A stretch of 64,000 bases of DNA from Fibrobacter sp. (GTDB lineage Bacteria > Fibrobacterota > Fibrobacteria > Fibrobacterales > Fibrobacteraceae): the NCBI GenBank assembly GCA_024399035.1, contig JAKSID010000001.1:1-64000 (forward strand). The letters run 5' to 3'. The position numbers and the translations under genes were made by a program. A model generated the notes under the pieces. The model was not told where the DNA came from. It searched no databases and was given only the letters and a program-made list of their open reading frames with translations. Each line of letters opens with the position of its first letter. Positions within the stretch are counted from its first letter, which is position 1. Below, one piece after another: positions 175 through 56,439 of this stretch.

Positions 175-2712
175 TTATTTAAACAGGTCGTTGTCGCCGT
201 CATCTTCAGTGCCTTCGTCTTCTACGGAGTCGCAGAAGGGATCGGCGGGGGAGATTCGGCTGGTGCGCTTCACCTTCTTGGCGGTGAACTTGCTGCCCAG
301 AGCCTTATAGCCCTTCACGTCGGCGATTTCGGTCAGGTCCAGTTCTTCCTTCTGGACTTCGCGGCCAACCTGGTATTCCATCAGCTGGCGAGCGTCGTCT
401 GTTGCGAAGAACTCGATCATCTGGGAATCCTTGTGGTCGGAAATCAGGCTGAATTCAGCGGTCATGGGGCAGCCTTCCAGGTTGAAGCGCTTGACCATGT
501 AGTTGAAGTTCCCGCCTTCGAAGTACAGAACGGTAAAGACCTGTGCGGGGTCGAACTTGTGGATGTACTTGATGCCGGTACCGATCAAAATCGGGTCTGC
601 CATGTCGTGGACACGGGCGGTTCCGTTTTCCTTCACGATAAGGATCTTGTCCTTTTCGCCGAATTCACCGATGCGGTCGCCCTTCTTCTGGGTGCTGATG
701 ATGCCGCTGGGGGCGTCGAAGTACAGCACGCGTGCGCCCAAGGTGCTAACGCCCTTCTTGGTGCGCTTGATGCTCTTGATGGGGTACTTGGTGACGATAT
801 TACCGATGGCGCCACGACCCTTCACCTCTACAGAGCTGAAATCCACTTCGAAGTTCAGCTTGGTACGGGGGCGGGGCTTCAGGGTGACTTCCACCACTTC
901 GGCTTCGCCGTTCAGGTTGCTGGACAGGTAAAGAATCTTGCTGCCCGGCTTGCCCTTGCCCATGAAGTAGTCCTTGTCGCGGGTAACGCCACCCACGTTG
1001 AAGCGCTTGATGTAGGCGGTGCCTTCCTTGCCATCCTGGTGGATGACGTTATAGATATGGCGGTCGTCGTCCTTCTTGAACTTTTCAACCAGGATAATGT
1101 CTTTACCGACAAAGTCCTTGTCGCTGACCTTTACCACCTTGAAGCTGCCATCGGCCTTGAACACGATAAGGTCGTCGTACTCGGACACGTCGAAGAGGTA
1201 TTCTTCCTTCTTCATGCCGGTGCCGACGAAGCCTTCCTTGCGGTTCACGTAGAGCTTCTGGTTGGCCAGAGCCACATGGACTGCGCTGACGGTGCCGAAT
1301 TCGCCGATTTCAGTCTTGCGGTCGCGACCTTCGCCGTACTTCTTGAGAATGTTCTTGAAGTAGTTGACGGCGTAGTCGGTCAGGTGTTCCTTGTTGTAGT
1401 TGACTTCTGCGATCTTCTCGTCCAGTTCCTTCAACAGTTCGTCGGCCTTCTTGCGGTCGAAACGGCTGATTCTGCGGACGGGGATTTCTGCCAACTTGAG
1501 AATTTCTTCGCGGGTCACTTCGCGACGGAGCTTGCGCACGTAGGGCTTGAGGCCGTCGTCGATCAACTGCACCATTTCTTCGTGGGTCTTGGCCTGCTTG
1601 ATCACTTCATAGACTTCGTGCTCGATGAAGATCTTTTCGAGGCTGGTCATGTGCCACTGGTCCTGCAGGTGCTTGAGCTGGTTATCCAGTTCCCAGTCCA
1701 GCAGGTGAACGGTGTGGTCTGTAGAAAGCTTCAGAAGTTCGGTAGTGCTACTGAACTTGGGCTTCTTGTCGATAATGACGCAGGAGTTGGCTGCCAAGGT
1801 AGTCTGGCAGTCGGTAAATGCATAGAGGGCATCGATTGCCACCTGGGGGTCGGTACCGGGCTGCAAGTGAACCAGAATTTCCACGTTTTCGGTGGTGTGG
1901 TCCACAATCTGCTTCACCTTGATCTTGCCCTTATCATTGGCCTTGACGATGGAGTCAATCAGGCTGTCCGTAGTGGTTCCGAAGGGAATTTCACGGATGG
2001 CGAGAGTCTTGTTGTCCACCTTTTCGATGCGGGCGCGGACCTTGAGTCGACCGCCGCGACGACCGTCGTCGTATTCGCTGACGTCGATAATGCCGCCGGT
2101 AAAGAAGTCCGGGAAAAGCTGGAACTTACGGCCGCGCAGGTAGTCGATGCTGGCCTGGCAAAGTTCCTTGAAGTTGTGGGGGAGGATGGTGGTGGAAAGG
2201 CCCACGGCAATACCATCGACGCCCTGTGCAAGTACAATGGGGAACTTGGCGGGGAGTGAAACCGGTTCCTTGGAACGACCATCGTAGTTGGGGATCCATT
2301 CCGTAGTTTCCGGGTTGAACATCACCTCGACGGCGAAGTCGGAAAGCTTACCTTCGATGTAACGGGGAGCAGCAGCTTCGTTACCGGTGAGAGGGTTACC
2401 CCAGTTACCCTGCGGCTCGATGAGCAGGTTCTTCTGGCCCATGTTCACCAGGGCGCTGTAGATAGAAGCGTCGCCATGGGGGTGGTAATGCATGGTATCA
2501 CCTACGATACCTGCCACCTTGTGGAAACTGCCATCGTGCATTTCGAAAAGGGTGTGCAGAATGCGGCGCTGCACCGGCTTGAGGCCGTCTTCGAAGTAGG
2601 GCACGGCACGGTCAAGGATGGTGTAGCTTGCGTAGTCCAGGAACCAGCCGTTATACAGCTTTTCCAGATGATTTACGTTGGAGAGGCCTAGTGTTTTCTG
2701 TTCTTCATCCAT
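175..2712 (-). CDS. parC: DNA topoisomerase IV subunit A (ParC)
   Basis: Breakage-reunion subunit of a type IIA topoisomerase that unlinks replicated chromosomes together with ParE. 845 aa. The N-terminal domain carries H-Y-H-P-H-G-D (75-81), the quinolone-pocket region, and A-A-A-P-R-Y with the predicted catalytic Tyr118 that forms the covalent DNA bond. The C-terminal half should be the DNA-wrapping domain, and the protein ends in an acidic tail. It lacks an obvious GyrA box, and its partner next door reads as ParE, so topoisomerase IV is preferred over gyrase. The start ATG follows the parE stop by 2 nt, so the two are cotranscribed. The sequence resembles the GyrA/ParC group of Bacteroidota more than the E. 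coli type (impression from motifs, not a tree). Confidence 0.93.
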   Translation of the reverse strand: MDEEQKTLGLSNVNHLEKLYNGWFLDYASYTILDRAVPYFEDGLKPVQRRILHTLFEMHDGSFHKVAGIVGDTMHYHPHGDASIYSALVNMGQKNLLIEPQGNWGNPLTGNEAAAPRYIEGKLSDFAVEVMFNPETTEWIPNYDGRSKEPVSLPAKFPIVLAQGVDGIAVGLSTTILPHNFKELCQASIDYLRGRKFQLFPDFFTGGIIDVSEYDDGRRGGRLKVRARIEKVDNKTLAIREIPFGTTTDSLIDSIVKANDKGKIKVKQIVDHTTENVEILVHLQPGTDPQVAIDALYAFTDCQTTLAANSCVIIDKKPKFSSTTELLKLSTDHTVHLLDWELDNQLKHLQDQWHMTSLEKIFIEHEVYEVIKQAKTHEEMVQLIDDGLKPYVRKLRREVTREEILKLAEIPVRRISRFDRKKADELLKELDEKIAEVNYNKEHLTDYAVNYFKNILKKYGEGRDRKTEIGEFGTVSAVHVALANQKLYVNRKEGFVGTGMKKEEYLFDVSEYDDLIVFKADGSFKVVKVSDKDFVGKDIILVEKFKKDDDRHIYNVIHQDGKEGTAYIKRFNVGGVTRDKDYFMGKGKPGSKILYLSSNLNGEAEVVEVTLKPRPRTKLNFEVDFSSVEVKGRGAIGNIVTKYPIKSIKRTKKGVSTLGARVLYFDAPSGIISTQKKGDRIGEFGEKDKILIVKENGTARVHDMADPILIGTGIKYIHKFDPAQVFTVLYFEGGNFNYMVKRFNLEGCPMTAEFSLISDHKDSQMIEFFATDDARQLMEYQVGREVQKEELDLTEIADVKGYKALGSKFTAKKVKRTSRISPADPFCDSVEDEGTEDDGDNDLFK

Positions 2713-2714
2713 GA

Positions 2715-4565
2715 TTACAGCTCCTCAACGGCTTCTGTTCTAAGGTTTTCAACAATAAAGTCCTGACGGCTCTGGGTGTTCTTGCCCATGTAATATTCAA
2801 GCATTTTACCCAGGGAAGCGTCGGTAGGCATGGTCACTGTTTCCAGGTGCATGTTTTCGCCGATCAGAAGCTTAAAGTCTTCGGAGTCCATTTCGCCAAG
2901 ACCTTTGAATCGTGTGATTTCCAGGTCCTTCTTGGTGATTTCCTTGGCGGCGCGGTCGCGTTCCTCTTCGTCGTAGCAGTAGAAGGTCTTGGACTTGTCC
3001 TTCTTGTGGCGGACGCGGAACAGGGGAGCCTGCAGAATGTACAGGTGCTTTTCTGCCACCAGTTCCGGGAAGAACTGCAAGAAGAAGGTCATGAGCAGCA
3101 GGCGGATGTGCATACCGTCCACGTCGGCATCGGTTGCGATAATCACCTTGTCGTAGCGCAGGTCTTCCAGACCGTTTTCGATGTTCAAGGCTGCCTGCAG
3201 CAGGTTCCATTCTTCGTTTTCGTAAACAATCTTCTTGCTCAGACCGAAACTGTTCAGCGGCTTACCGCGAAGGCTGAACACTGCCTGGGTCTTGGGGTTA
3301 CGTGCCGTAGTGATGGTACCGGATGCAGAGTTACCTTCGGTAATGAAGATCATGGTTTCGTTCTTCAGCGGGTTCTTTGCATCGGTAAGGTGTACGGAAC
3401 AGTCACGAAGCTTCTTGTTGTTAAGATTTGCCTTCTTGGCGCGTTCGTTGGCCAGTTTCTTTACACCAGCCAGGTCCTTGCGGAGCTTTTCGTTCTGGTT
3501 GATGCGGTCCAGCATTGCCTTGGCAACGGCTTCGTTCTTGTGAAGGTAGTTGTCCAGTTCCTTGGCCACGTAGTCCACAATCCAGGAGCGAAGTGCAGGG
3601 CCGTTGGGAGCGGTAGTGGTGCTGCCCAGCTTGGTCTTGGTCTGGGATTCGAAAACCGGTTCCTGGATACGTACGGAAATGGCGCCGATAATGCAGTTAC
3701 GCACGTCGCTGGCGTCGAATTCCTTCTTGAAATGGTCGCGGATGCCCTTGACCACGCCTTCGCGGAAGGCTGCCTGATGGGTACCACCCTGGGTGGTGTG
3801 CTGGCCGTTCACGAAGCTGAAGTAATGTTCACCTTCCTGGTTGGAATGGGTGATGGCGAACTCGATATCCTTGCTCTTGCAGTGGATGACGTCGTAGCGG
3901 ATGGTATCGTCGGTACGGCTGTGCAAGAGGTCCAAAAGACCGTTGGGGCTTACGTAGGTCTTGTCGTTCATGATGAGTGACAAGCCTGTGTTCAGGTAAG
4001 CGTAGTTCCAGATCTTTTCTTCCATGTAGGCCGGAAGGAATCTGAAGTTCTTGAAAAGGTCGTTGTCGGGCACGAAGTAGATTTCGGTACCGTTCTTTTC
4101 GTTGGTAGCCTCGATCTTGTAGTCCTTGACTAGGATACCCTTGCTGAATTCGGCCTTTTTCACGCGACCGTCGCGAATACTGCGGACAACGAAAGTGGTG
4201 GAGAGGGCGTTTACGGCCTTGGTACCCACACCGTTCATACCCACGGACTTCTGGAAGGCTTCGGAATCGTACTTACCGCCGGTGTTCATCTTGCTGACGC
4301 AGTCGATGACCTTTTCCAGGGGGATGCCACGGCCATAGTCGCGGACGCGGCAGGCGTGGTCTTCCATGGTGATTTCGATTTTTTTGCCGGCACCCATGGC
4401 GAATTCGTCGATGGAGTTGTCGATTACTTCCTTGGCGAGAACGTAGATACCGTCATCGGGGCTCTGGCCGTCGCCCAGCTTACCGATGTACATACCCGGA
4501 CGCATGCGGATATGTTCGTACCAGTCCAATGTCTTAATATTACTTTCGTCGTATTTTACTGCCAT
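2715..4565 (-). CDS. parE: DNA topoisomerase IV subunit B (ParE)
   Basis: ATPase subunit of topoisomerase IV. 616 aa. GHKL ATP-binding motifs are visible: E-V-I-D-N-S (46-51, with the catalytic Glu and Mg-binding Asn), D-Y-G-R-G (76-80) and N-G-V-G-T-K-A (111-117). The TOPRIM domain has E410-G-N-S-A-S-G and the D-A-D-V-D cluster (479-483) that bind the divalent metal. The length suits the short ParE/GyrB class without the E. coli GyrB insert. It is the first gene of the parE-parC operon, 2 nt before parC. A TATATTTG box at 4707-4714 on this strand could be its promoter, but I see no good -35. Confidence 0.93.
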   Translation of the reverse strand: MAVKYDESNIKTLDWYEHIRMRPGMYIGKLGDGQSPDDGIYVLAKEVIDNSIDEFAMGAGKKIEITMEDHACRVRDYGRGIPLEKVIDCVSKMNTGGKYDSEAFQKSVGMNGVGTKAVNALSTTFVVRSIRDGRVKKAEFSKGILVKDYKIEATNEKNGTEIYFVPDNDLFKNFRFLPAYMEEKIWNYAYLNTGLSLIMNDKTYVSPNGLLDLLHSRTDDTIRYDVIHCKSKDIEFAITHSNQEGEHYFSFVNGQHTTQGGTHQAAFREGVVKGIRDHFKKEFDASDVRNCIIGAISVRIQEPVFESQTKTKLGSTTTAPNGPALRSWIVDYVAKELDNYLHKNEAVAKAMLDRINQNEKLRKDLAGVKKLANERAKKANLNNKKLRDCSVHLTDAKNPLKNETMIFITEGNSASGTITTARNPKTQAVFSLRGKPLNSFGLSKKIVYENEEWNLLQAALNIENGLEDLRYDKVIIATDADVDGMHIRLLLMTFFLQFFPELVAEKHLYILQAPLFRVRHKKDKSKTFYCYDEEERDRAAKEITKKDLEITRFKGLGEMDSEDFKLLIGENMHLETVTMPTDASLGKMLEYYMGKNTQSRQDFIVENLRTEAVEEL

Positions 4566-4897
4566 AATCTTAAAGCGCTTTGCAGCGGGTCCTTTATAAG
4601 CGTTTTTTTAAGCGTTTTACGAAAACAAATTGTAGTTCACGGCAATTTTAGGAATTTTTCCGTGTCAAAAATGTGCACTACAGGTTAAAGTTCTGTAAGT
4701 TTTTATCAAATATAGTAAAAATTTTGCCAAAAGAGTGAAAATTTGTGCACTATACTAGCTTTGATATTTTATCAATGGAACTTTCGGCAGGGTTGGTGAT
4801 TTTGCTCACATACCTATTTACTTTATAGAGTGCGCAGCGGAGTGGTGTCCGGTGTGCGGTAATGGTAGGGCGAATCCTACCGAAAAAGGAGTATGGA
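4566..4897. promoter_or_regulatory. divergent intergenic region, parE / esterase
   Basis: AT-rich 332-bp gap without a gene. It holds two direct copies of TGTGCACTA (4672-4680 and 4744-4752), a minus-strand TATATTTG box (4707-4714), a CRP-like dyad GGTGA-N6-TCACA (4795-4810), and a hairpin GGTAGG/CCTACC (4864-4881) just before the esterase ribosome-binding site AAGGAG (4886-4891). A possible esterase promoter is TTGCTC (4802) - 16 nt - TATAGA (4824). The functions are inferred from position. Confidence 0.45.
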
Positions 4898-54747: not shown

Positions 54748-55842
54748 CTATGCTTCGTCGGCGCTGAGTTCAATTTCGTCGTCGGCGGAGAGAGCATCGC
54801 CTTCGTTAAGCTTGAAGAGTTCCACATCCTTCATGCTTTCGCGGATCTTGGTTTCGATCTCGTTGCAGAGTTCTGCGTTATCCTTCAGGAACAAGCGAGC
54901 GTTTTCGCGGCCCTGGCCGATGCGTTCGTTGTTGTAGCTGAACCAGGAACCGCTCTTCTGGATGATGTCCATTTCGGTAGCGAGATCCAGGATGGAAGCT
55001 TCGCGAGAAATGCCGCAACCATAGAGAATGTCGAATTCGCACTGGGTGAAGGGTGCTGCCACCTTGTTCTTAACAATCTTGACGCGGGTACGGTTGCCGA
55101 TAACGTCTTCACCGTCCTTGATAGCAGCAATGCGGCGGATGTCGATACGCTGGGTGGCGTAGAACTTAAGTGCGTTACCACCGGTGGTGGTTTCGGGGTT
55201 GCCGAACATAACGCCAATCTTCATACGCAGCTGGTTGATGAACAGCATGCAAGTGTTGGACTTGGAGAGAATGCCGGTGAGCTTACGCAGAGCCTGGCTC
55301 ATAAGGCGAGCCTGCAGGCCAACGTGGTTGTCGCCCATTTCGCCGTTGATTTCGGCCTGGGGAACGAGAGCTGCCACAGAGTCGATCACGATGATGTCGA
55401 TGGCGCCGGAACGCACGAGGGTTTCGGCAATGTCCAAGGCCTGTTCACCGGTATCGGGCTGGGAAACCAGGAGGGATTCGATATCCACGCCCAGCTTGCG
55501 GGCATAGACTGCGTCAAATGCGTGTTCTGCATCGATGAAGGCTGCGACACCACCCAACTTCTGGGCTTCGGCGATGGCATGGAGGGTGAGGGTTGTCTTA
55601 CCGGAGGATTCGGGTCCGTAAATTTCGATGATACGGCCGCGGGGGAAACCGCCTACGCCCAGTGCCATGTCGAGCTGGATACAGCCGGACGGGATGACCG
55701 GGATGTCTTCGATGGGCTGCTGGCCGAGAGCCATAATAGAACCTTTACCATAATTCTTTTCAATCTGTGCAATTGCAGCTTCTACTGCTTTTGCCTTGTC
55801 TGCGGAAAGGTTACCTGTTGCGCTGTTTGTCTTCTTAGTCAT
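54748..55842 (-). CDS. recA: recombinase RecA
   Basis: 364 aa from ATG 55842, chosen because GGAG lies 7 nt upstream; an upstream in-frame start would add 13 residues inside the leader. G-P-E-S-S-G-K-T-T Walker [11 protein letters not shown] Walker [14 protein letters not shown] loop 1 and [16 protein letters not shown] loop 2. Strand exchange in homologous repair and co-protease for LexA. The C-terminus is acidic as usual. Controlled by a LexA-type operator on its own promoter. Confidence 0.98.
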
Positions 55843-55878: not shown

Positions 55879-55909
55879 CAAATATATAAACTAGTGCTCA
55901 ATAGTGCAA
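55879..55909 (-). promoter_or_regulatory. recA promoter with Fibrobacter-type LexA box
   Basis: On the minus strand TTGCAC (55904-55909), 17 nt, TATATT (55881-55886). The operator TGCTCAATAGTGCA (55895-55908, read on plus) matches TGC-N-C-N4-GTGCA exactly and covers the -35 and upper spacer, so LexA would block RNA polymerase. The operator also lies inside the 3' end of pncC. Confidence 0.85.
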
Positions 55910-56439
55910 GTGCTTTTTCGTGTAATTATTTCAAAAAAAAGTTTGCATAGCACTCTATACACGCTTTTTTCACGAATTTGGGAACGGTTTCCAGAAAAAA
56001 TTTCACAAAAAGTTTCAGTTTTCTGGCTGTTGGCCACTGCCATCCATACCGTACCCACGGGTTTGCCGGGTACCGCACCGCCTGGGCCTGCGATTCCGGA
56101 GGTTGCCACTGCCCATTCGCAATTGAACTTTTGGCGGGCGCCCTCGGCCATGGCCTTGACGGTTTCGGCGCTGACTGCACCTACTGTATTGAGAATTTCG
56201 GAGGGAACCCCAAGCATTTTTTCCTTGACCTCGTTCTGGTAGGCGACAATGCCGCCGGCAAGCACTGCCGAAGAACCGGGAATGTCCACCATGTGGCTTG
56301 CAACCAGGCCCCCTGTGCAGGATTCTGCGGTAGCGAGCATTTCGCCGCGCTTGATCAGGGAGTCCTTGATATCGCTTGCCAACTTCTGGATTTCGATCTG
56401 GAGTTCGGCCAGTGTGAAAGAATCAAGTTTGTTTAGCAT
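55891..56439 (-). CDS. pncC: CinA C-terminal-domain nicotinamide-nucleotide amidase
   Basis: 182 aa, stand-alone CinA C-terminal domain. Converts NMN to nicotinate mononucleotide in the pyridine nucleotide cycle. T-A-E-S-C-T-G-G-L, I-P-G-S-S-A-V-L-A-G-G-I-V-A-Y, and A-T-S-G-I-A-G-P-G-G-A-V-P-G-K-P-V-G-T-V are the family signature. 48 nt before recA, as cinA is in many bacteria. TATATTTG at 56459-56466 (minus) is a likely -10 box. The last ten residues (T-R-K-S-T-C-T-I-E-H) are encoded by the recA operator/-35 region. Confidence 0.9.
   Translation of the reverse strand: MLNKLDSFTLAELQIEIQKLASDIKDSLIKRGEMLATAESCTGGLVASHMVDIPGSSAVLAGGIVAYQNEVKEKMLGVPSEILNTVGAVSAETVKAMAEGARQKFNCEWAVATSGIAGPGGAVPGKPVGTVWMAVANSQKTETFCEIFSGNRSQIREKSVYRVLCKLFFEIITRKSTCTIEH

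Follow-up and report, generated by a model that had tools for sequence, protein, structure and literature searches.

The LexA box of Gram-positive bacteria is CGAACRNRYGTTCG, and that of Fibrobacter succinogenes was reportedly defined in 2004, by Mazon et al., as TGCNCN4GTGCAT. Both can be compared with the sites found at the recA promoter of a 64 kb stretch from a Fibrobacter genome (the window) and at related promoters of the family. As in the Gram-positive box, these sites consist of a half-site, N4 and a second half-site, and GTTC occurs in the uvrA sites and in several recA sites. However, the outer T and A and a 3' nTA are nearly invariant here, and the halves of the lexA sites are GTGCA. 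With regard to the F. succinogenes box, the recA site of the window fits the fixed bases TGCNCN4GTGCA and the lexA promoters of the genus contain TGCCCAGTTGTGCAT-type sites, whereas the right halves of the recA and uvrA sites of the family are mostly GAACA, GTTCA or GTACA, and the lexA site of this genome has GTACA.

Control of topoisomerases by the SOS response is precedented outside Fibrobacter. In Bacteroidetes parCE belongs to the SOS regulon, with confirmed induction, a non-canonical repressor and a CTAA-N5-TTAG motif (PMC8565304). Fibrobacter resembles this case in its topoisomerase IV genes, which are here putative SOS targets, and differs from it in having a canonical LexA and another motif. 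In Streptomyces venezuelae parE is listed among the LexA targets (PMC9380542), but the box is TCGAAC...GTnC-like and this parE is an additional gene.

The recA promoter

We consider it very probable, from sequence comparison, that the element before recA (Table 1) is a LexA operator that represses this gene. The first-pass annotation had predicted such an operator over the -35, and this prediction is supported by the family-wide footprint, by the class of sites at lexA and uvrA and by an intact LexA gene, all described below.

Table 1. Features of the window around recA and around the topoisomerase IV genes
Feature	Position	Strand	Remarks
Predicted LexA operator core, recA	55895..55908	-	TGCAC-TATT-GAGCA; = TGCACTATTGAGCA
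Predicted extended operator (18 bp), TTGCACTATTGAGCACTA	55892..55909	-	takes in the conserved 3' CTA
-35 hexamer of recA, TTGCAC	55904..55909	-	within the operator
-10 hexamer of recA, TATATT	55881..55886	-	position and sequence conserved
recA (364 aa)	54748..55842	-	TIGR02012, 581.9 bits (cut-off 325.3)
pncC/cinA-C-like gene	55891..56439	-	PncC_domain TIGR00199 over cut-off, PF02464
Second LexA-type site	about 4735..4752	+	upstream of parE-parC; on the gene strand TAGTGCAC-AAAT-TTTCAC
B subunit of a type IIA topoisomerase (parE-like, 616 aa); a putative target of LexA	2715..4565	-	
A subunit of a type IIA topoisomerase (parC-like, 845 aa)	175..2712	-	2 nt downstream of parE

On the recA strand the region reads AAAAAGCACTTGCACTATTGAGCACTAGTTTATATATTTG ... 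ATG, that is, TTGCAC, 17 nt, TATATT and then the recA ATG at 55842 on the minus strand. On the plus strand the core (55895-55908) is TGCTCAATAGTGCA, or TGCTC-AATA-GTGCA, and it is the match to TGCNCN4GTGCA that had been noticed earlier and the sole exact one in the window. The TTGCAC-17-TATATT promoter described under the operator was also found, with its hexamers and gap conserved in relatives; the 17 nt between TTGCnC and TATATT are kept in eight genera, and a spacing of 15 obtained for some recA promoters comes from reading these promoters at the TATATA of TATATATT. A generic sigma-70 promoter scan did not call the recA promoter, because TTGCAC matches TTGACA at only 3 of the 6 positions. 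A reading of the -10 as a Bacteroidetes-type TAnnTTTG was dropped; relatives have TATATTA or TATATTTA.

From what is known of LexA in general, a dimer of this repressor on the recA site would cover the -35 and block RNA polymerase. When the DNA is damaged, filaments of RecA would trigger the self-cleavage of LexA and the block would be lifted. Control of recA by LexA is the expected kind of switch, the topoisomerase IV site being the less expected one.

Background frequency of the literal motif

The recA match might be a chance match to a degenerate 14-mer, recA being constitutive or controlled in some other way, and the counts of the literal motif agree with this. TGCNCN4GTGCA occurs once in the window versus 0.50 expected by shuffling, and at least one match was found in 40 of the 100 shuffled windows; therefore, the literal match carries no significance by itself. 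In the genome, which is 88% complete at 2.94 Mb, there are 13 strand hits at 10 places versus 8 for the reversed control, recA is the sole repair gene among these 10 places, and the genome scan gave no enrichment of the motif upstream of repair genes. At lexA this genome has TGCCCTATTGTACA, with a GTACA half, and the promoter lacks the literal motif. A relaxed form, TGCNCN4GNNCANTA, was not enriched in the genome scan (14 versus 13 in the control); single-genome motif scans lack statistical power. Furthermore, there are bacteria, for example Geobacter sulfurreducens, whose recA promoter is not bound by LexA, according to the title of a work cited in PMC8565304.

Within the genus, the literal motif fits the recA operator in 1 of the 30 members, the GAGCA half being found in this genome only. 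The recA operators of the genus are mostly TGCACAAnnGAACA or TGCACAAAAGTTCA, with GAACA, GTTCA or GTACA as the right half, and since this half varies, the affinity of LexA at recA is not predictable. The first-pass annotation had relied on an exact Fibrobacter-type motif, and this argument is not supported: the motif has background frequency genome-wide, is absent at lexA and fits one recA operator in 30.

A probable family-wide operator

What speaks against a chance match is the conservation of position throughout the family, together with an independent matrix derived from lexA. TTGCnC-N4-GnnCA-n-TA or a near relative stands at a fixed place in 50 of the 52 recA upstream regions (11 genera), and the recA promoters of two named Fibrobacter both carry the operator. 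In a scan of named genomes for RecA, the records most similar to that of the window are from Fibrobacter MAGs. The remaining two regions are off the relaxed pattern and have degenerate sites, TTGCTTTTTTGTGCAGTA in genome G007 and CTGCTTTTTTGTTCAGTG in genome G035. Across 47 operators of recA, lexA and uvrA, T2, C6, A15 and T17 are invariant.

A matrix built from lexA sites only gives the recA site the highest score of the window, and one built from lexA and uvrA sites, with no recA data, places it at the top of about 128,000 strand positions. With either matrix the recA site scores 19-20 bits, and with the lexA and uvrA matrix such a score is expected by chance 0.03 times per window, or about 9e-5 times per 200 nt. 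The sites of the matrices were partly picked by eye from aligned promoters, and it is the lexA-only test that frees recA and parE of circularity. A search with a model made from sequence only, in which few top sites reach E<10, is informative only by cross-genome comparison. Taking these results together, we regard a chance match as highly improbable.

The predicted Fibrobacteraceae operator is TnnnC-N4-GnnCA-n-TA, with GTGCA, GTTCA and variants as half-sites, and it is wider than TGCNCN4GTGCA. The genome scan that had been proposed as a refutation test goes against the literal motif, but the family-derived motif passes it. The literal consensus misses most of the presumed true sites, namely those of uvrA and most of those of recA, and one motif match is here replaced by a family-wide definition of the Fibrobacter operator, in a phylum that has been little studied.

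The same conservation could also reflect promoter strength alone, that is, the binding of a sigma factor to the -35 and its flanks, with no repressor. TTGCAC does overlap the -35, and the codons AAA AGC ACT, outside the operator, are conserved too. Nevertheless, the conserved GnnCA-n-TA half lies in the spacer, which is little read by the sigma-70 holoenzyme; the operator of lexA lies in the spacer behind a separate TTGACA; and the same code is found before uvrA, parE and parC at other distances. We give this explanation no more credit than the chance match and keep the LexA operator as the preferred reading.

The predicted operator and the end of pncC

The stop codon of pncC is at 55891-55893, and the operator spans the last codons of this gene, TGC ACT ATT GAG CAC. 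That the conserved sequence is only the C-terminal tail of PncC (KSTCTxEH), with no regulatory site, is the least probable of the explanations considered. In its favour, the operator of most genera falls within the reading frame of pncC, and the residues of the tail are conserved. Against it, synonymous positions are frozen, Thr is fixed as ACA, an uncommon codon, one codon inside the operator is free, the operator is retained in one genus (g5) behind another gene, and sites of this class stand in the promoters of lexA and uvrA, where there is no tail of this kind.

The Thr over the operator is encoded by ACA in 29 of the 30 genomes versus 36 of the 202 Thr codons in the body of pncC, and the Cys by TGC in 30 of the 30 versus 58 of the 96; the genomes are related, hence these counts are not independent events. 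The codon at the N4 spacer is variable (Asn, Ser, Lys or Ile) and the following one is Glu or Val. In genus g5 an alkyltransferase-like gene with an IIPCHRI motif replaces pncC upstream of recA and ends before the operator, which is kept without any overlap. The evidence says that the operator constrains the pncC tail and that the constraint is one on the DNA, because synonymous positions of pncC are frozen and g5 retains the operator downstream of a gene other than pncC. The operator had been described as being under a coding constraint as well; the overlap with pncC is real, but the frozen synonymous sites, the free spacer codon and g5 turn the direction of the constraint around.

The IIPCHRI gene of g5 was seen upstream of recA at loci L082, L083, L085, L091 and L092. 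The codons AAA AGC ACT (55909-55917), outside the 14-bp core, are nearly invariant in the 30 genomes of the genus.

lexA, uvrA and the LexA protein

Sites of the operator class stand at lexA, uvrA and recA, as in an SOS regulon. The lexA promoters of the family have TTGACA and then, in the spacer, TGCCCAATTGTGCATTATATT and variants. An invariant TGTGCAGTG (here L011:1363-1371) precedes the lexA operator by 31 bp, about three helical turns, and may be a half or degenerate second operator. The operator of lexA would fill the promoter spacer and that of recA would cover the -35, so the geometry appears to depend on the gene. The uvrA promoters of the genus carry a site of the same class, for example TATTCAAATGTTCACTATATTTG, and in this genome CTATTCAAATGTTCACTATATTTG. 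Throughout the family, uvrA consists of a single open frame, about 1,780 codons long, with two UvrA units in tandem (here L164, C12:55383-60752).

The genome has a single intact LexA, above the TIGR00498 cut-off, with the PF01726 DNA-binding domain and PF00717 (S24 protease). Its cleavage and catalytic motifs can be read in the sequence: VAAGTP (AG site), GDSM (Ser) and TVK (Lys).

The Y-family polymerase was rejected as a member of the regulon: among 11 loci of the genus, one promoter scores 12 and the rest 1.2 or less, with no consistent operator. Since this gene is without a consistent operator, the regulon is unlike the textbook SOS response.

Topoisomerase IV genes

The site upstream of parE-parC has the second-best matrix score in the window. 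A score of at least 12 was found upstream of parE in 15 of the 18 genomes of the genus and in 4 of the 7 genomes of other genera, and a separate site precedes parC in 8 of the 9 genus genomes in which the two genes lie apart. As a control, 1 of 402 pieces of 260 nt from the recA and parC loci reaches a score of 12. It is therefore likely, although less so than for recA, that LexA directly controls parE-parC in Fibrobacteraceae, through one operator before parE where the operon is intact and usually through one each where it is split.

The parE protein matches the gyrB and parE models alike, in both cases below the cut-off, and it is therefore mainly the A subunit and the gene pairing that support the identity as topoisomerase IV; the parC orthologue in genome G044 passes NCBIfam NF009397.

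As recA, lexA, uvrA and parE/parC share one operator class, we propose that they form a single LexA regulon, which is what recA, lexA, uvrA and topoisomerase IV look like from their promoters. After damage recA, lexA and uvrA would be derepressed, and parE-parC very probably too. In the literature searched we found no report of SOS control of topoisomerase IV in Fibrobacter. If true, this case and that of Bacteroidetes would be instances of separately wired SOS control of chromosome decatenation, with a different repressor and operator. If confirmed, SOS control of parE-parC under different repressors would allow comparative tests of whether decatenation plays a part in recovery from damage.

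Other LexA-like sites

LexA-like sites were also seen beside accessory genes. In this genome they stand beside a BrnT toxin gene and beside a gene of unknown product that has a YhcG-like gene nearby (L119 on C13 and L120 on C15), and in relatives they adjoin AbiEi-like, AAA ATPase, RhuM and HigB-like genes (among L129, L136, L139 and L186). These are single-genome hits and may be due to chance. In two members of the genus (L125 and L184), an AIPR-domain gene and a leucine-rich-repeat gene divergent from it have a further LexA-like site between them.
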